Part shown: in pieces, positions 862 to 60,132 of the stretch | Layout of the letters: each line of letters starts with the position of its first letter | Numbering within the stretch: the stretch's first letter is position 1 | NCBI GenBank assembly: GCA_903813345.2 | Contig: CAIIXF020000003.1 | Location: 32,425,151 to 32,489,150, forward strand | DNA from: Owenia fusiformis | Taxonomy: Eukaryota; Annelida; Polychaeta; Sabellida; Oweniidae | DNA length: 64,000 nt | Direction of reading: 5' to 3' | Notes under the pieces: generated by a model | What the model was told of the DNA's origin: nothing | Database searches by the model: none | The model's input: the letters and a program-made list of their open reading frames with translations, nothing else | Position numbers and translations under genes: made by a program

Positions 862-1132
862 ATCCAGAGAGGCTGAAGAGAATGAGCTATCATACGAAAC
901 ATGGTTGAAAGAAACCAAAAAACAAGAACGAAAATTATCTCGTCAAGAAACCAGAGCCAAAATAAAATTTGAAAGTCAAAAGGTGGACCGAATTAGCGAG
1001 AATACTAAAACCGCAATAAAAAATTGGGCAAAAAGGAGTAAAGATGTTGAAGAGGCAAAGGTTGTGCCATTGGCGGTAGAACAAATCAAGAAGGGTGGTA
1101 GAATTAGAAAACCTGAGATAGTGGCGAGTTGA
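862..1132 (+). CDS. Terminal exon of an unrecognised gene with a charged, basic C-terminus
   Basis: The exon opens after a good acceptor (gcttgatttcag at 850-861). It reads with one base completing a split codon and ends at a TGA at 1130-1132. The roughly 90 residues are rich in Lys, Glu and Arg (SYETWLKETKKQERKL, then ISENTKTAIKNWAKRSKD) and predict a long helix or coiled coil, followed by a short basic tail ending PEIVAS. The rest of the gene lies left of the window. The composition resembles C-termini of cytoskeletal or microtubule-associated coiled-coil proteins, but I recognise no family signature and assign no function. A polyadenylation signal follows at 1518. The exon is likely real because of its acceptor, open frame and biased composition. 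The gene identity is unknown. Confidence 0.6.
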
Positions 1133-1540
1133 TCAGGGAACAATCAAAGGAAGACATCCAATTGATTTGCTGTTTGTCTGAGATTGAAGGAGTTATACAT
1201 CTTTGCACAATTGGTTGTCACTTTGACCGACGGGAGCCGAGTGAACAAAGATGGGAGGTAAAATGGATCCATCCAATCACTTGCTGTTTATCATTGGTGT
1301 TGTATGATGATGTTTTGTTCACCATGGTAACGAGTCCACTGTGCCTACATTGTGTGCTTGCAATGGAGTAAAACAGACCAGATGATTCATTCCCTTCACT
1401 GGGGTATTATTGCTTATTATGAATACCAATCATGGCGTTTAATTCACCTTAAGCCATTGTACGCTTATGATGGTGTGCTTATGGGTTCACACATTGGAGG
1501 AAGTGTGTTAATTTTTGAATAAAATATACAAAATATGTGA
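1133..1540 (+). other. 3' untranslated region of the first gene
   Basis: Sequence between the TGA at 1130-1132 and an AATAAA at 1518-1523. An 80-codon frame beginning at 1129 has no coding character and overlaps the stop, so it is treated as UTR. Confidence 0.5.
1518..1523 (+). terminator. Polyadenylation signal AATAAA
   Basis: Canonical hexamer 386 bases after the stop of the first gene, in an A/T-rich setting. It is the first canonical hexamer after the stop. Confidence 0.4.
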
Positions 1541-3185
1541 ACTTTTATAAAAATGAGAGTTTTAGAAAGAAAATCATGTATAATCATAAATGGATAGCAA
1601 TCGATTTGCAAGTTCTTGCGCCTTTCACATTGTACTCAAATTGTAGTCAGGGGAACTGAATGGATATATCCAAAATTAAGAAACATGTTGCAGGGATAGA
1701 AAACCCATAGAGAACCCAACCACCAAGAGCATGCCTAGATCATGCAATATCATGGGATACACTATTGTAAGAAAGCAGACCTTATGTGTGCTGTATGTGC
1801 TGTCATGCTACAGGTTCCTGGTTCTTGTCATTTTGATACTCATCATATCTTTCTGTTTCACTGGAAAAACATTACATGAAGAAGAAATGATATGATGTGG
1901 TGTATTTAAGCATGATTGGTTGATTTTCCAATCCAAAATGTTCTCTTAAATTATATACCAATGAGATTATGGAATAGAGTATTAAATGTAATTGAAGAAT
2001 TATGACTTCCTGATGAGATTTTAGTAGTGAGATTTTTACAAAAAAGAATAAATTTGTTGTTCTTATTTATATTATTCTAAAAATTAATATGTATTTATTC
2101 TTCTATATTTACAATGCTACTAAAAGTAGTAATAAAATTTAATATATATTTTTTTGTGTAAAAATAATAAAAAATAAATGATAAAAAAAAAACATTACAT
2201 TTTTATTATGTCCATTTGATTATTGAATTGACATTATTGCAGAATTGAATAAGGGAATTATTTTGAAATAAAGCCAGAACATGGTAGGCTTTTTAGAAAA
2301 TAGGCATGATATATGGTAAAATTTAATATCAACCATCCAATAAAGTTCCATCATTTAATTAATTTATTTATTTAGACATACACCTTTAACAGTAACAATA
2401 AGGTGCATCTAATGGAAAGACAATCAAAGTGACAAATTGGTTAAAAATTATTTTCTCATCAGAAACTCTTTATTAGTAATAATTTCCACCTTCATGTATT
2501 TCACAGTTGCTGATATCTGTGAATTTGTGTGCAGCATCTAGTATGCTAGTGGTGGACTAATTTTACTGTTCAGCTCCAGATCTCCATCCTTTAAATTCAG
2601 TTCCTTCCTTTTTCCAAAAAGAATGAGGTACAAGTTCTGGAGACCTGTCTTCGGAGGATGCAGATCTCAAAAATATGAAAATGCTGTTAATCATAAAATG
2701 TTCACATTTATTTTCATAAAATCAGGGCATTCAGATTCTCCTTCATCTGTAAAACTATTTGCACTATTGTAATTCAACACTCATTTATCTCGAGTTTGGT
2801 TTTATTTTGTTTTTTCTTAATCTACAAAAAAGCCAATGGACTTTGATTCTATGTTTACTGTCTACTGTTAGCATAATGTAGATTGTGACTTGATGTGTTC
2901 TAAATATTCAGCATCTTTGAAATTCTTTGGTGATCTTTTTTCTTCCCTGCTTGTAACACAATTTCCTTTTTAGCATAGTAAAACAAATAATGACGTATGT
3001 TTGCCATATGATAATCCTTGAAATTCTTTAACCAATAAAAACAACAAATACATCTGTAGCCTAATTGTACATGTACAAGTCATTTGAAACAAAACTCTGT
3101 TTTAGTCAAATAATTCATTTTAAACTTTATTCAGTATGTCATTTATAATACGTACATGTTATATATCAATAGATCACATTTGTTA
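1541..3185. other. Intergenic AT-rich stretch without a visible gene
   Basis: No exon-like segment with splice sites was seen. It contains one copy (1824-1870) of a short dispersed repeat also present near 27767, and an extremely A/T-rich patch around 2040-2190. Confidence 0.4.
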
Positions 3186-3372
3186 ATACACACACATGTT
3201 TTCAAACTGTGACAAATATTATTTGCATTATTTTCAAACTTTGCATGAGGCCTTTAATACCAGAATACTGGTTTGCATGTATTTCAAACTGGATGCATAT
3301 TTTTTCCAATATTTTTTTCAAACTTTGCATGGGGCCTTTAATACACATACATGTATTCCAACTGTGATATAT
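3186..3372 (+). repeat. Imperfect tandem repeat, about 80-bp unit
   Basis: The phrase tttcaaactttgcatg followed by gGcctttaatac occurs twice about 80-90 bases apart, flanked by further partial copies (ttcaaactg, tccaactgtga). The 77-codon frame crossing it is a product of the repeat. Confidence 0.6.
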
Positions 3373-50804: not shown

Positions 50805-52622
50805 GTTATAAACATGGCTTGTTTGGTACAAAACTATGCATGATAAAAAATTTTAAAAAAAAAGATTGTAATTACAAAAAAAGTAAAAGTGGTCCGCGGG
50901 TCAGCAAATTGTGACTGATGTTAATCTGAAAATTTCCTGCCAAAACATATTCATCTTGCCTAGATGGTTGCTTCAAACTACTTGTACTAGAGGCAGAACA
51001 ATACTCTTGAAGTCATTTATCCAGAAGTATTCTTCATTGCTGAGAGGATCATTTCATTTATAATTGTTTCCATTAGCCTGGACGCACATGCGTTGATGAC
51101 AAACTTAGTCCATAAAGATGTATTCCATTCCTCCCTTTGGTATCCCTTGAAGATTTGCTGAAGCCGTTGAAATCAGTCCCTTATCGGAATCAAACTTATG
51201 ACCTCTCATATAATGCTTTAGCACCCAAAATGTAGCGAAGCCTAAAGGTGCTTCATCTGGTGAATATTGTCTGGTGAATATGGGGCAGTAAAAGCTTGTA
51301 TGAACCCTAATTCGTCAACAGTACTATGGGCAGCTTGAGTAATGGGAAGGAGTATGGTCATAAAAGAAGATAACTCCCCGCTATTTTGAGTCATGATTTT
51401 GACTTTGAGAGTCTGACGAATAATAAGAAAATAGAGCAAAGTACACTATTATATATCACAATACAGGTGTTACTTTAGAAACTAAAGCAAGAAGTATTTG
51501 AAAATATGAAAAATCACAGAAATATGTCCACCAAATAGGTATTTATAAACCATATTTTTGGATCAAGCAAAATTTGAATTCATTTTTATTTTACTTGACC
51601 CGCTACGCCATTTGTCATGTTGCTATAGTAACGACAATTATCCATTGTGACATCAGATGACAATGAGACTGATTTATCCCACCCAAAATTACATTCCCTA
51701 TTTACCTTGAAGATTTCAAGTAAATTGGTTGAAAACTAATGAAATGACATATTACATATGCTCCTGATTGTATTTATTATAAATAGTGTACTTTAAGATA
51801 GAAGCCAGTTACTAAATACGGGTATTGACTATTTGGATTCTAGTTAATTAGTACAGTAGTAGTGTATTTACTTTGACTTTATACAAATCTGTAGAAGAAA
51901 AATGTTGGGTGTAAAGTCTGTTTTGGGGTATTTAAAAGTATATTTTTAGTACAACCTATTGACAATTTATATCATGTAGTATAAATCAAGAACCATCAGT
52001 CATTCTGACATTCTATTTCTAGCCATATCCCACAGGATGGTTAAATTAGCTGATAAGCTTTCAAGTTTGTGAGTAAATAAATGAGGCATGTGGGTGTATC
52101 ATTATCAGATGATTGCCAAATTTTGCTTAACAGATTCACTTGACAGGGTTGCCACTTGTTGAATGTTTAAATGGTCATTGAATTTTTGAGTTGAGGAAAT
52201 TTGAGTGACATTTTGAAAAGTTTAAAACTAAACCACAAGCTGAAGTTGTATAGTACTATGAAATGCGAAATCATAATAATGTTATCAGTGGACATGTATG
52301 TTGCCTCTTTTAATCAAGAAAAAAATATTTTGTTAGGGAACTTCACGCTTGAACTAAGGAAAAGTCAGGGAATTTTGATTGGACAATGTGGGAACCCTTT
52401 TATTTAGAACTAAACAATTCAAGCTTGCCCTGGTAGTAAAAGTTATGGACGAAACATGCTAAAAAAACATCAACTTCTGTATATAATGTACATATGTACA
52501 TATACATGTAGGTCATTTAGGTTAATTTATTATATGTATATGTGGTGATTATTGTAATAAACAGAGGTTTTTGTAGCTTAAATAAATTGCATTTCTGTTG
52601 ATTTTTTATTTCAATGCATATG

Positions 52623-55214: not shown

Positions 55215-55358
55215 ATGGCCGTTCCAGCAGGCACCAACCAATGTCTCTCCCGTGTAGAGATCAGAATCTCATGTAGCCACCTAGTGGGCAAAGATGTACT
55301 CAGTAAGTCTGACCCCTGTGCTGTGGTGATGATGGAAACAAAAGGGAAATACCATGAG
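55215..55358 (+). CDS. Copine coding exon 1 (C2A start)
   Basis: 48 codons, [20 protein letters not shown] to KGKYHE, phase-0 donor gag|gtaaag. In-frame codons upstream of the ATG have no ATG, so this is the start. Confidence 0.9.
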
Positions 55359-58300
55359 GTAAAGCGATTCATTCATCATATGCCTTTATAATAGTCTTGC
55401 ATCAAGACCTTTTGAAGCAATAATGATCATGTACATTTAGATGGGATTTTTCTTAAAATGGGACTCTGGGCATAGTGGGACTCCATCATGTCCATGGGAC
55501 TTTGGTAAATAGGTTCCGTGATCAGGTCCCAGAAAGCCATATTTTGGGACTCTTTGGGAACCCCATGGCTCAAAGCTTTATGCCATTGGAACCTGATGTC
55601 CTGCCTGATGTACAGTATATTCCATGTCGCAAGTGGAATATTCCTCATTGGTTTATGTTGGACTTTAGTAGGATAGAGGAGATTTTTCTCAAAAAGCTAT
55701 AATTGTTGATTGAAATTTTATTGAGATAATACGGTATCTTATATTTTTGTTCTACCTTTGTTATTGACTTGCAATAAAGTGCAACCTAATTTATGTTTCA
55801 GATAGGAAGAACAGAACAAATAAAAAACTGCCACGATCCTGAGTTCACTAAAACGTTTGAAGTTGATTACTTTTTTGAGGAAGTGCAGAAATTAAGGATT
55901 GCAGTTTATGATATTGACAACCAAACTTCTCGGCTGGATGATGATGATTTCCTGGGGCAACTGGACTGCACTCTGGGACAGGTATACGCTTTTAATAGTT
56001 AAATTATGCTTCTTTAAGATATATTCACATGTTCTGAACTTCTAATAACTTCCTTATTCATAGTCCTATGTCATTTTGAGGTACAAACAGCTTATTCCAT
56101 TCATGGTCTACAACTTTCAGTTTTGTACAAAGTATGCATGAATATATCAGAATATATGATAGATTATTAATTGAATGTTAATATTCTAAATGTATACTAC
56201 ATTTACAGCACATGGGATCAATATGCAAGCCTACATACATGTTATTTGTTCTACTCTGCCTACCTAAATGCTATATTTCGTATAAACTTTAATACTTTGT
56301 CACGATTTCAGGTTGTCTCCAACAGTCCATTTACCAGACCTCTACAAGTGAAACAGAAATCTGATAAGAAAAGTACAATCACAGTAAGTGACATAAAAAG
56401 GGAATTTTTTCATTTGTGTCTAAAATGTAATCAGCCATTCAAAGGTTTATATAAGTCCCACCACATACATGTACGAGTAAGAAGGGGTAGCAATTTTGAT
56501 AAATTAAAAATCAGTCTATCAAATTTCCACACCCTGGGAGCAATAATAGCTGGTCACATAAAATAAATTATATTGAGAAAGTCAATTTCAAAAGTCTATA
56601 CTCCCAGGGCGATTTACTCTGTCTAAATTCCACAACTCCAATGTCGAATTCCAAACCTTTTATATGTACAGTACTTATAGTGCTATGATATTAGTTACAA
56701 AAATACATTTATTAGTGAATTGTGGTATATGAAATACAGTACTTATAGTACTATAAGTTACAAAAATACATTTATTACTCAGTGAATTGTGGAATATGAT
56801 ATATGTATTTATTTCCAAAAACACTTCTGCCAAAAGTATAGGGTGGGTCATATAATAGGTTTTGGGGATATAAACCTGTGTATAATAAGATTTCAGTTCA
56901 GTTCACCTGTTTAATCCTCTTCATAAAATAACCTATGAACTACATGACTGCCATCTTTATATGAGATTCAAAACTAGGTGGGAAGAAACTTTGAGCTATT
57001 CTTGAGCTACTGATACATCGAGTACTATCTGGCCTTGATTTGTGCTTATGCTTGCTAAAATTTCTATATACACTTATGGAGGGGAGCATACCTCTTTGAA
57101 TAAGTACTTTACATGTTTATCGCCAGATATTTGCTGAAGAGATACAAGGGAGCAATGATGTGGTACAGCTGTCATTCCGGGCTGAAAAACTTGACAAGAA
57201 GGACTTCCTCAGCAAATCTGACCCTTACCTAGAATTCTGCCGTGAAGCTGCTAATGGGAAATGGGTGGTCGTACACAGAACTGAGGTACCATTTGTTTGT
57301 TTATTTGTTGCTATGGTATAATGCCATATAAAATGTTGAGATGTAGGAAATAGTAAATCCTGTTTTATCTGAATGTATCTGGAACAGACCCAAAGTGTAT
57401 GAATAGGCAGATGCTCACATATCAAGGATATTGAGCATGGAAGTCTCTGCCAGAGATCAAATGTGATCAAAAAGCATTCACATTGAGAAATGTTCAGAGT
57501 AGAGAAATGTTCAGATATACAGGTTTTACTGCACCATACTTAAGTCTCCAACTTTTTGTGGCAGCCGTCATCAGTTGGTGTTCGGTGTTTGGTGTCTGTA
57601 ACAAACGTTGGTGGTGACGTTTTGTGTGTAAATGCTTTGTTTTAATCTGCCATTGCCATTTAAAGTTAAAAACTTTGAAATGTAAACACTTGTACCAATC
57701 TGAGTAATTTTGGCTTGTCCCAGCAGAATTAGGATTAGACAGGATTTATTTTATGTTTTTAATCTTTAGAAAAAGTTTCAATTCTGTTTTTAGGTGGTTG
57801 ATAATAACCTTAATCCCCAATGGAAGCCATTTGAACTACCAATCAGAACGCTGTGTGGAGGCCACTATGATAAAGTAATAAAGGTTAGTAAAAGATGCTT
57901 AATGTCATTGTGCAGCATACCGTGATCTTTTAGACCAGGTTGTGTTTTAGTAAAACATCTGTGTGAGCATATTAATTGCTAGAAATGAAACATGACATCA
58001 TAGTATTGTCATGGTTATTAATCAAAGCAGATTAATGTCCTCCAAAAATGATAGTCCACCTTTTATATAACCAACCACCCCTGGTTGATTATAACCTTAT
58101 AAAGAAAATAGTTATTATTAAGTCACTATACAATTCAGTAGAGGAGGACATTAATAAATCAGAACTAAATGAATGTCCACATTGACAGTGAACTTAGACT
58201 ATGTGATATGAATAATTCATATTCAATTGCCATTGTTGAGAACTGACAATATACTTATAAATGTGCGAAAATCAATCATACATACGCACTATAGTATTGT

Positions 58301-58684
58301 TATAACCGACAAATAAAAAGACTGTTATCGTAACAATTAAATATTTATTATAGTTTTGGTTGCCTCTTTGTGGTTGTGATCTATAAGAATTCGACTTAAA
58401 GGAATTAACGTTGAATCAAAACGAGGCTGCATATTTATTACATTATTATAGGTGTCGTGTTACGACCATGACGATGATGATGAAAATGATCTGATTGGTG
58501 ATATCTCACTTCCTGTTTCTGAGCTAGCAAACTGCGAAGCCAAACAGGTATTTAATTTTTTGTTATTTAAACGTTGTTTATTCCATCCTAGGTGATTTGC
58601 TATGATTATGACGATGATGGGTCACATGACTTAATCGGGGAATTTTCGACAAAACTTAGTGAAATGATAGATTGCCCAAAATCG
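55215..58684 (+). CDS. Copine, N-terminal C2A and C2B domains (partial gene)
   Basis: Copines are cytosolic Ca2+-dependent phospholipid-binding proteins with two C2 domains and a vWA domain. Phase-0 exons 55215-55358, 55802-55981, 56312-56383, 57127-57285, 57794-57883 and a sixth position filled by either 58452-58547 or 58592-58684 give about 246 residues. C2A (residues about 8-125) has [16 protein letters not shown] and the hallmark [19 protein letters not shown] with [13 protein letters not shown]2B (about 140 on) has [35 protein letters not shown] and [16 protein letters not shown]. Candidate Ca2+ ligands D27, D33, D85, D87, D158, D164, D220, D222 and D228 are present. The start ATG is preceded by an acceptor-like site at 55142, so a 5' UTR exon lies upstream. 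The vWA domain is not in the window, so the gene must run on or be truncated. Confidence 0.92.
55802..55981 (+). CDS. Copine coding exon 2 (C2A core)
   Basis: 60 codons after acceptor atttatgtttcag. Contains the copine-typical [11 protein letters not shown] and [19 protein letters not shown] with acidic Ca2+-loop residues. Phase 0 at both ends. Confidence 0.95.
56312..56383 (+). CDS. Copine coding exon 3 (C2A-C2B linker)
   Basis: 24 codons, [20 protein letters not shown] then STIT. Acceptor cacgatttcag, donor aca|gtaagt. The frame continues past the donor without coding character. Confidence 0.85.
56667..56801 (+). repeat. Tandem duplication of about 68 bp in a copine intron
   Basis: tacagtacttatagt, gttacaaaaatacatttatta and gtgaattgtgg each occur twice in the same order. 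Confidence 0.75.
57127..57285 (+). CDS. Copine coding exon 4 (C2B start)
   Basis: 53 codons, [20 protein letters not shown] to VVVHRTE. Contains [14 protein letters not shown]. Acceptor tttatcgccag, donor gag|gtacca. Confidence 0.95.
57472..57531 (-). repeat. Partial CAGTAAAACC-family repeat
   Basis: Plus strand reads aagcattcacattgagaaat and ends gatatacaggttttactgc, the right-end signature of the family. The left end is absent. Confidence 0.5.
57794..57883 (+). CDS. Copine coding exon 5 (C2B middle)
   Basis: 30 codons, [20 protein letters not shown] to DKVIK, with the copine-conserved LNPQWKPF. Phase-0 donor aag|gttagt. Confidence 0.93.
58452..58547 (+). CDS. Copine alternative exon 6a (divergent C2B loop)
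   Basis: 32 codons, [19 protein letters not shown] to NCEAKQ. Acceptor cattattatag, donor cag|gtattt, phase 0. Homologous to exon 6b 44 bases downstream. It keeps the acidic ligands D220, D222 and D228 but replaces the canonical DGSHD by DDEND and changes the following strand and helix. The downstream 44-base intron is too short for ordinary splicing, so 6a and 6b should be alternatives. Confidence 0.88.
58592..58684 (+). CDS. Copine alternative exon 6b (canonical C2B loop)
   Basis: 31 codons, [19 protein letters not shown] to DCPKS. Acceptor tattccatcctag, donor tcg|gtaaga, phase 0. The [16 protein letters not shown] string is the copine consensus, so 6b is probably the ancestral version and 6a the derived duplicate. 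Confidence 0.9.
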
Positions 58685-60079: not shown

Positions 60080-60132
60080 AGGATAGAACTAATAGATTTG
60101 GCCAAGAATAGCTATAGTATTGATAATCAACG
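60080..60132 (+). CDS. Tentative copine exon 7
   Basis: 53 nt between a gatatcag acceptor and a good gtaaga donor, phase 0 in, two bases out. It reads RIELIDLAKNSYSIDNQ. Other copines follow C2B with an (E)F(E/K)LINPKK...KKSYKNSG stretch. IELI and KNSYS resemble it weakly. It could be a diverged exon or chance. Confidence 0.3.

Follow-up and report, generated by a model that had tools for sequence, protein, structure and literature searches.

Mutually exclusive exons that are kept apart by steric means are already known (PMC5740500, PMC7969005). The limit for such exclusion lies at about 50 nt from the 5' splice site to the branch point (PMC5740500; PMC7969005), and 57 candidates (9%) among human clusters have been assigned to steric interference, with the branch point less than 50 bp from the donor (PMC5740500). 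In vertebrate OGDH, exons 4a and 4b yield a Ca2+-sensitive and a Ca2+-insensitive version, and the human branch points are located 25-41 nt from the 5' splice site (PMC7969005). In copines, the C2B domain is reported to be critical for Ca2+-dependent membrane association, and the human splice forms covered by a 2024 review are mostly deletions and alternative N-termini, with one long C2A insert, whose effect is not clear (PMC10968396).

Here we analysed a window of 64,000 nt from Owenia fusiformis (C3:32425151-32489150) against the genome of 498 Mb in 525 contigs; positions given without a contig refer to the window. Two tandem homologous exons, 6a and 6b, were found in the C2B domain of a copine gene. 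They are likely to be mutually exclusive alternative exons of this one gene, which would give two copines with different loops.

Structure of the copine gene

The host gene of 6a and 6b is apparently a complete copine gene that extends beyond the window end. Its modelled part lies on the plus strand, and exons 1-5 contain no stop and all end in phase 0. Exon 1 (55215-55358, open frame, donor gtaaag) starts C2A with an ATG at 55215, and exon 2 (55802-55981, phase 0) continues it, with 64% identity between its first 33 residues and the C5:28.35 Mb copine. The linker between C2A and C2B is encoded by exon 3 (56312-56383, phase 0, open frame, donor gtaagt), and the C2B strands with Ca2+ loop 1 (..SKSDPYLEF..) by exon 4 (57127-57285). 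Exon 5 (57794-57883), to which the C5 paralogs align, continues C2B and ends in phase 0 with the donor gttagt. Exon 6a (58452-58547) and exon 6b (58592-58684) follow, separated by a GT..AG spacer of 44 nt (58548-58591). A probable exon 7 (60080-60132, RIELIDLAKNSYSIDNQ.., donor gtaaga), common to both forms, starts in phase 0, and by eye it resembles FDLVHPKKKAKKKSYKNSG of the C5 copine. The putative exon after exon 7 is uncertain, and its residues were still included in the Pfam and PDB queries. The remaining six introns of the modelled part measure 330-1395 nt.

Matches to the copine vWA profile PF07002 are located at C3:32507930-32512763, on the same contig and strand, about 19-24 kb past the window end. 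Homologous copine exons were found by tblastn in order downstream of the C2 exons on the same strand, and the remainder of the protein is represented there by ..HSFLDYIFGG.., GIDFTASNGNP.., DKMFPCLGFGARVPP.., ..QLYGPTNASPV.., ..LLLITDGVITDMNETRQAIV.. and ..IIVGVGNADFTDM... A vWA domain downstream of C2 domains assigns the gene to the copine family, with the linkage into one gene predicted. The gene model holds two C2 domains, a C2B recognized by Pfam (PF00168, 56.8-59.6 bits) and a C2A of which exon 2 matches the corresponding part of the C5 copine (tblastn). Copine-type vWA genes were also seen at C12:16913523-16914122 and C1:45307698-45309259, with no C2 noticed nearby; one of them consists of a single 364-codon open frame.

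In a comparison over 25 positions, 6b agrees with the C5:28.35 Mb copine in 19 residues and with the C5:39.26 Mb copine in 15; for 6a the counts are 12 and 10, respectively, and 14 residues are common to 6a and 6b. By this measure the canonical form is 6b, and 6a is derived. A second copy of the exon 6 segment was not found in either C5 copine by tblastn. In both of them an intron splits the segment, after ..DSDG and ..NRSG, respectively, and the C3 gene is the only one of the three copines with the whole loop on a single exon; a loop swap by exchange of one exon is therefore possible there. By eye, the intron positions of the C3 copine (55215-58684) differ from those of both C5 copines at several places. 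The C3 gene has extra phase-0 introns at AG|GT sites and lacks the DG|SH intron of the C5 copines, a pattern that suggests a turnover of its introns.

Anatomy of the exon pair

An earlier note, made from the letters of this DNA, had described 6a and 6b as tandem homologous C2B exons 44 nt apart with shared phase 0. Their borders, spacing and phase proved exact, and 15 of the 28 aligned residues are identical. Exon 6a has 96 nt (32 codons) and exon 6b 93 nt (31 codons), both divisible by three, and each is bordered by ag| and |gt. As exon 5 ends and the probable exon 7 starts in phase 0, the flanking phases are compatible, and the two exons are tandem, homologous, of the same phase and exchangeable in frame, as is characteristic of mutually exclusive exons. 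The 3' end of the spacer is pyrimidine-rich; upstream of the 6a 3' splice site an A-rich tract was noted by eye. No further copy of exon 6 scored better than E 2 in a tblastn search from window position 52001 to C3:32515500. Elsewhere in the genome, the matches to exon 6 were those to the C5 copines, which do not extend beyond the loop, and a single match at chance level on C10 (E 4). A comparison of the spacer with the flanking introns for edges of the duplication gave no similarity (P 0.58 and 0.94).

When 6a is read through with the spacer kept, the frame runs on for 15 codons and then meets a stop directly beyond the spacer. This stop would allow 6a to act as an alternative last coding exon, with its donor unused and a truncated copine as the product. 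We regard this as highly improbable, as the in-phase donor CAG|gtattt is intact, and half a C2B domain without vWA would be an odd product for a constrained exon.

Completion of the C2 domain and Ca2+ loop 3

Together with its neighbours, 6a gives 59.6 bits to PF00168 and 6b gives 56.8 bits. When both exons are omitted, the match falls to 34.7 bits and covers only profile positions 8-59 of 104. By the profile, the C2 domain is completed by either exon and truncated without both. Each version also aligned across the exchanged segment to the C2B domain of BONZAI 1, a plant copine of solved structure, the 6b version with 59.3 bits (query 2-108) and the 6a version with 52.9 bits (query 2-110).

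In C2 domains the loop-3 ligands are Asp residues at positions 1, +2 and +8. Loop 3 reads D-H-D-D-D-D-E-N-D in 6a and D-Y-D-D-D-G-S-H-D in 6b, so that all three ligands are present in each, as had been proposed. The proposed difference in loop charge was also borne out, with seven acidic residues in the nine-residue loop of 6a versus five in 6b. At loop positions +5 to +7, 6b and both C5 copines carry G-S-H, and 6a carries D-E-N. As basic residues of loop 3 contact lipid in synaptotagmin-type C2 domains, the more acidic loop tip of 6a is expected, by inference only, to alter Ca2+ affinity or membrane contact.

The 44-nt gap and the introns of this genome

The earlier note had argued that introns as short as the gap can generally not be spliced. 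As a general rule this does not hold, since the spliceability of short introns depends on the species, and nematodes splice introns of about this size. A survey of the introns of this genome was therefore needed. Introns were estimated as the gaps between consecutive exon matches, corrected for profile overlap, in the myosin head, kinesin motor and tyrosine-kinase-like families. Of 394 matches listed (92, 144 and at least 158, respectively), 211 were used; those dropped by eye were the 12 matches of a myosin array, 17 of the 18 of a kinesin array, matches without neighbours and matches that run through many stops. The 95 neighbour pairs within the limits of the script, a non-random sample in which a match bridging a short intron would be missed, gave a minimum of 118 nt, a 5th percentile of 167 nt and a median of 314 nt, with none below 100 nt. 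The two shortest estimates measured 133 and 126 nt on the sequence itself, and the smallest uncorrected gap between exon matches was 94 nt. Two suspicious matches that might bridge a short intron (L018 and L019) showed no tiny intron by eye. On this point the survey supports the earlier note for the sampled introns of this species.

The gap is shorter than every sampled intron. It is also shorter than the 50 nt from 5' splice site to branch point that serve as the limit for the steric class. Splicing of 6a to 6b is unlikely, because the gap is far below the sampled introns. Yet the spacer has GT..AG ends in addition to its pyrimidine-rich 3' end, and the two exons are in frame with each other. 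The gap might then be a short working intron, with both exons always included in an enlarged C2B domain that carries two loop-3 segments. Against PF00168 the doubled protein reaches 68.9 bits, spread over two stretches, and the Pfam score carries no penalty for doubling. Pfam itself is therefore no argument against double inclusion; the case against it is based on the gap and the C2 fold, in which a second strand-loop-strand copy has no place. In view of the survey and the fold, constant inclusion of both exons is quite improbable.

Age of the duplication and constraint

Exons 6a and 6b are 56% identical at the nucleotide level (37 changes in 84) and contain no stop, and the changes are distributed as 13, 7 and 17 over codon positions 1, 2 and 3. 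Over 28 codons, the Nei-Gojobori method counts differences at 15 of 16.5 synonymous and at 22 of 67.5 nonsynonymous sites (dN about 0.43), and synonymous sites are thus saturated. At 10 of the 15 identical residues the two exons use different codons. When 6b was mutated at random up to the observed nucleotide divergence, a mean of 7.0 residues stayed identical, and 15 identical residues with no stop were obtained in 0 of 20,000 trials. The resemblance between 6a and 6b is not due to chance. Saturated synonymous change, the dN value and the differing codons indicate that the duplication is old and that the protein sequence was held; by these estimates 6a and 6b are old duplicates under protein-level selection, with constraint on both copies.

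It could be argued that only 6b is used and that 6a, left over from exon-border tandem duplications, is dead or decaying. Duplicated exon borders are present in the copine gene and in two other genes (see below), 6a has diverged further than 6b (it agrees with the C5:28.35 Mb copine in 12 of 25 residues, and 6b in 19 of 25), and an A-rich tract precedes its 3' splice site. However, over a duplication old enough for synonymous change to be saturated, 6a has kept 32 codons without a stop, the three Asp ligands, the DLIG core and both splice sites intact. Neutral drift was simulated from 6b over the 28 codons only, with independent single-base changes and an AT-rich composition set by hand. Under these settings, at least 15 of 28 residues were retained without a stop in 0.9% of 5,000 simulations at 0.5 substitutions per site and in 0.02% of 5,000 at 0.65, which makes neutral decay of 0.5 substitutions per site or more improbable. 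Drift of up to 0.2 substitutions per site is compatible with the observed retention (40% or more), and a recent loss of 6a function is possible. Taken together, a dead 6a appears unlikely.

Exon-border arrays in the copine and other genes

The vWA part of the copine gene contains two young tandem arrays, one at each border of one intron (C3:32508406-32512203, about 19-23 kb past the right end of the window). The donor-side array repeats an exon end with its donor (82 bp, 28.9 copies; positions 906-3276 of locus L007), and the acceptor-side array repeats an acceptor with an exon start (123 bp, 7.0 copies; positions 3840-4703 of L007), with an open frame of 400 codons. The genome matches listed for the 82-bp unit number 29 and all fall at the copine locus, and at the corresponding site both C5 copines (2 of 2) have no intron in their open frame. 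A similar arrangement was seen in a kinesin motor exon (profile 290-327; C2:23266359-23269174, minus strand), where the acceptor and at least the first 114 bases are repeated 18 times. The spacing in this array (L017) is mostly 159 bp, and each unit has a stop except the last, which continues into the exon. In a myosin-head exon (L021, C1:57373401-57373950, minus strand) the acceptor and the first bases are duplicated once, 61 bp apart. A different pattern occurs at C9:37986009-37994334 on the minus strand, where one myosin-head stretch (profile about 18-84) is matched twelve times in tandem at spacings of about 0.3-1.9 kb; the matches are probably a large alternative-exon cluster of a myosin gene.

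The copine vWA arrays resemble the "mirages" of amphioxus, which are arrays of near-identical units spanning an exon border; those of the globin genes have units of 150-160 bp, and splicing is reported to be undisturbed (PMC3087553). The pair 6a/6b was considered as a mirage minisatellite itself and rejected, with only two copies at 56% nucleotide identity and no array detected there by TRF. The 140-bp spacing from 6a to 6b is in the size range of the amphioxus units (PMC3087553), so the pair may share an array-type origin. Our guess is that it may have begun as a border array and then, unlike the arrays, diverged under selection.

Proposed splicing of the exon pair

One-or-other splicing, as predicted from the sequence, is the best explanation for the pair. 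In the proposed scheme, exon 5 would have two alternative partners: it would be spliced to 6a, with exon 7 following 6a, or straight to 6b. Splicing of 6a to 6b would not occur, since a 5' splice site and a branch point cannot both fit into the 44-nt gap. Either exon would supply the same part of C2B, which comprises the strand before Ca2+ loop 3, the three Asp ligands and the strand after the loop, and the cell would make two copines that differ in this loop. The ancestral-like 6b would probably be the default, and the derived 6a, with D-E-N for G-S-H at the loop tip, would be expected to alter Ca2+ or membrane binding. A division into default use (6b) and regulated use of the exons is what we infer from these features. 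Among the points against exclusive use, joint inclusion would be in frame and carries no Pfam penalty, and the exon pair is absent from both C5 copines, where an intron splits the segment.

A further point against it is that docking or selector RNA pairing beyond shuffled controls was not found with RNAduplex in this single genome. The comparison, of low power, covered five pairs among intron 5, the spacer and two parts of intron 6, each set against 40 shuffles, and even the strongest pairing was equalled by 12 of 40 shuffles. Incompatibility of U12 and U2 splice sites between 6a and 6b was also considered and rejected, as the 6a donor gtattt does not by eye follow the U12 consensus.

More tentatively, and with somewhat less than even confidence, we propose an old selected switch, in which an exon of 31-32 residues would swap the strand-loop-strand of C2B between a canonical (6b) and a more acidic (6a) version and thereby set the Ca2+ threshold or the lipid preference. 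The switch would be enforced by the 44-nt gap, as the spliceosome of this species would be unable to bridge it. If used, the pair would be a clean tool, as it offers two natural proteins identical save for one Ca2+ loop.

Comparison with known systems

The earlier note knew of no such pair in copines, and a literature search, which covered mostly journals without subscription, likewise returned none. The copine example would be new, subject to transcripts, in a class of steric exons that is itself known (PMC5740500, PMC7969005). The copine pair has the same property as the human steric clusters, with less than 50 bp from donor to branch point, and neither CPNE nor copine occurs in the main text of that study (PMC5740500). 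The splice forms in the available text of the human copine review belong to the same protein family, but no homologous exon pair is described there (PMC10968396).

If our reading is true, a C2 protein would be added to the mutually exclusive exons that act on Ca2+ binding. The nearest case in logic is OGDH exons 4a and 4b, a Ca2+-related tandem pair that is likewise kept exclusive by geometry (PMC7969005). Exclusion in OGDH depends on branch points that lie close to the 5' splice site and distant from the 3' splice site (PMC7969005), whereas in the copine the whole gap is 44 nt. One OGDH form is Ca2+-insensitive (PMC7969005), whereas the three Asp ligands are present in both copine versions, and the proteins are unrelated. 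In the exon pairs of the alpha-actinins ACTN1 and ACTN4, homologous exons are likewise substituted within a Ca2+-binding motif (PMC9741552). The alpha-actinin motif is an EF-hand of which only one version binds Ca2+ (PMC9741552), whereas the copine pair lies in a C2 domain.
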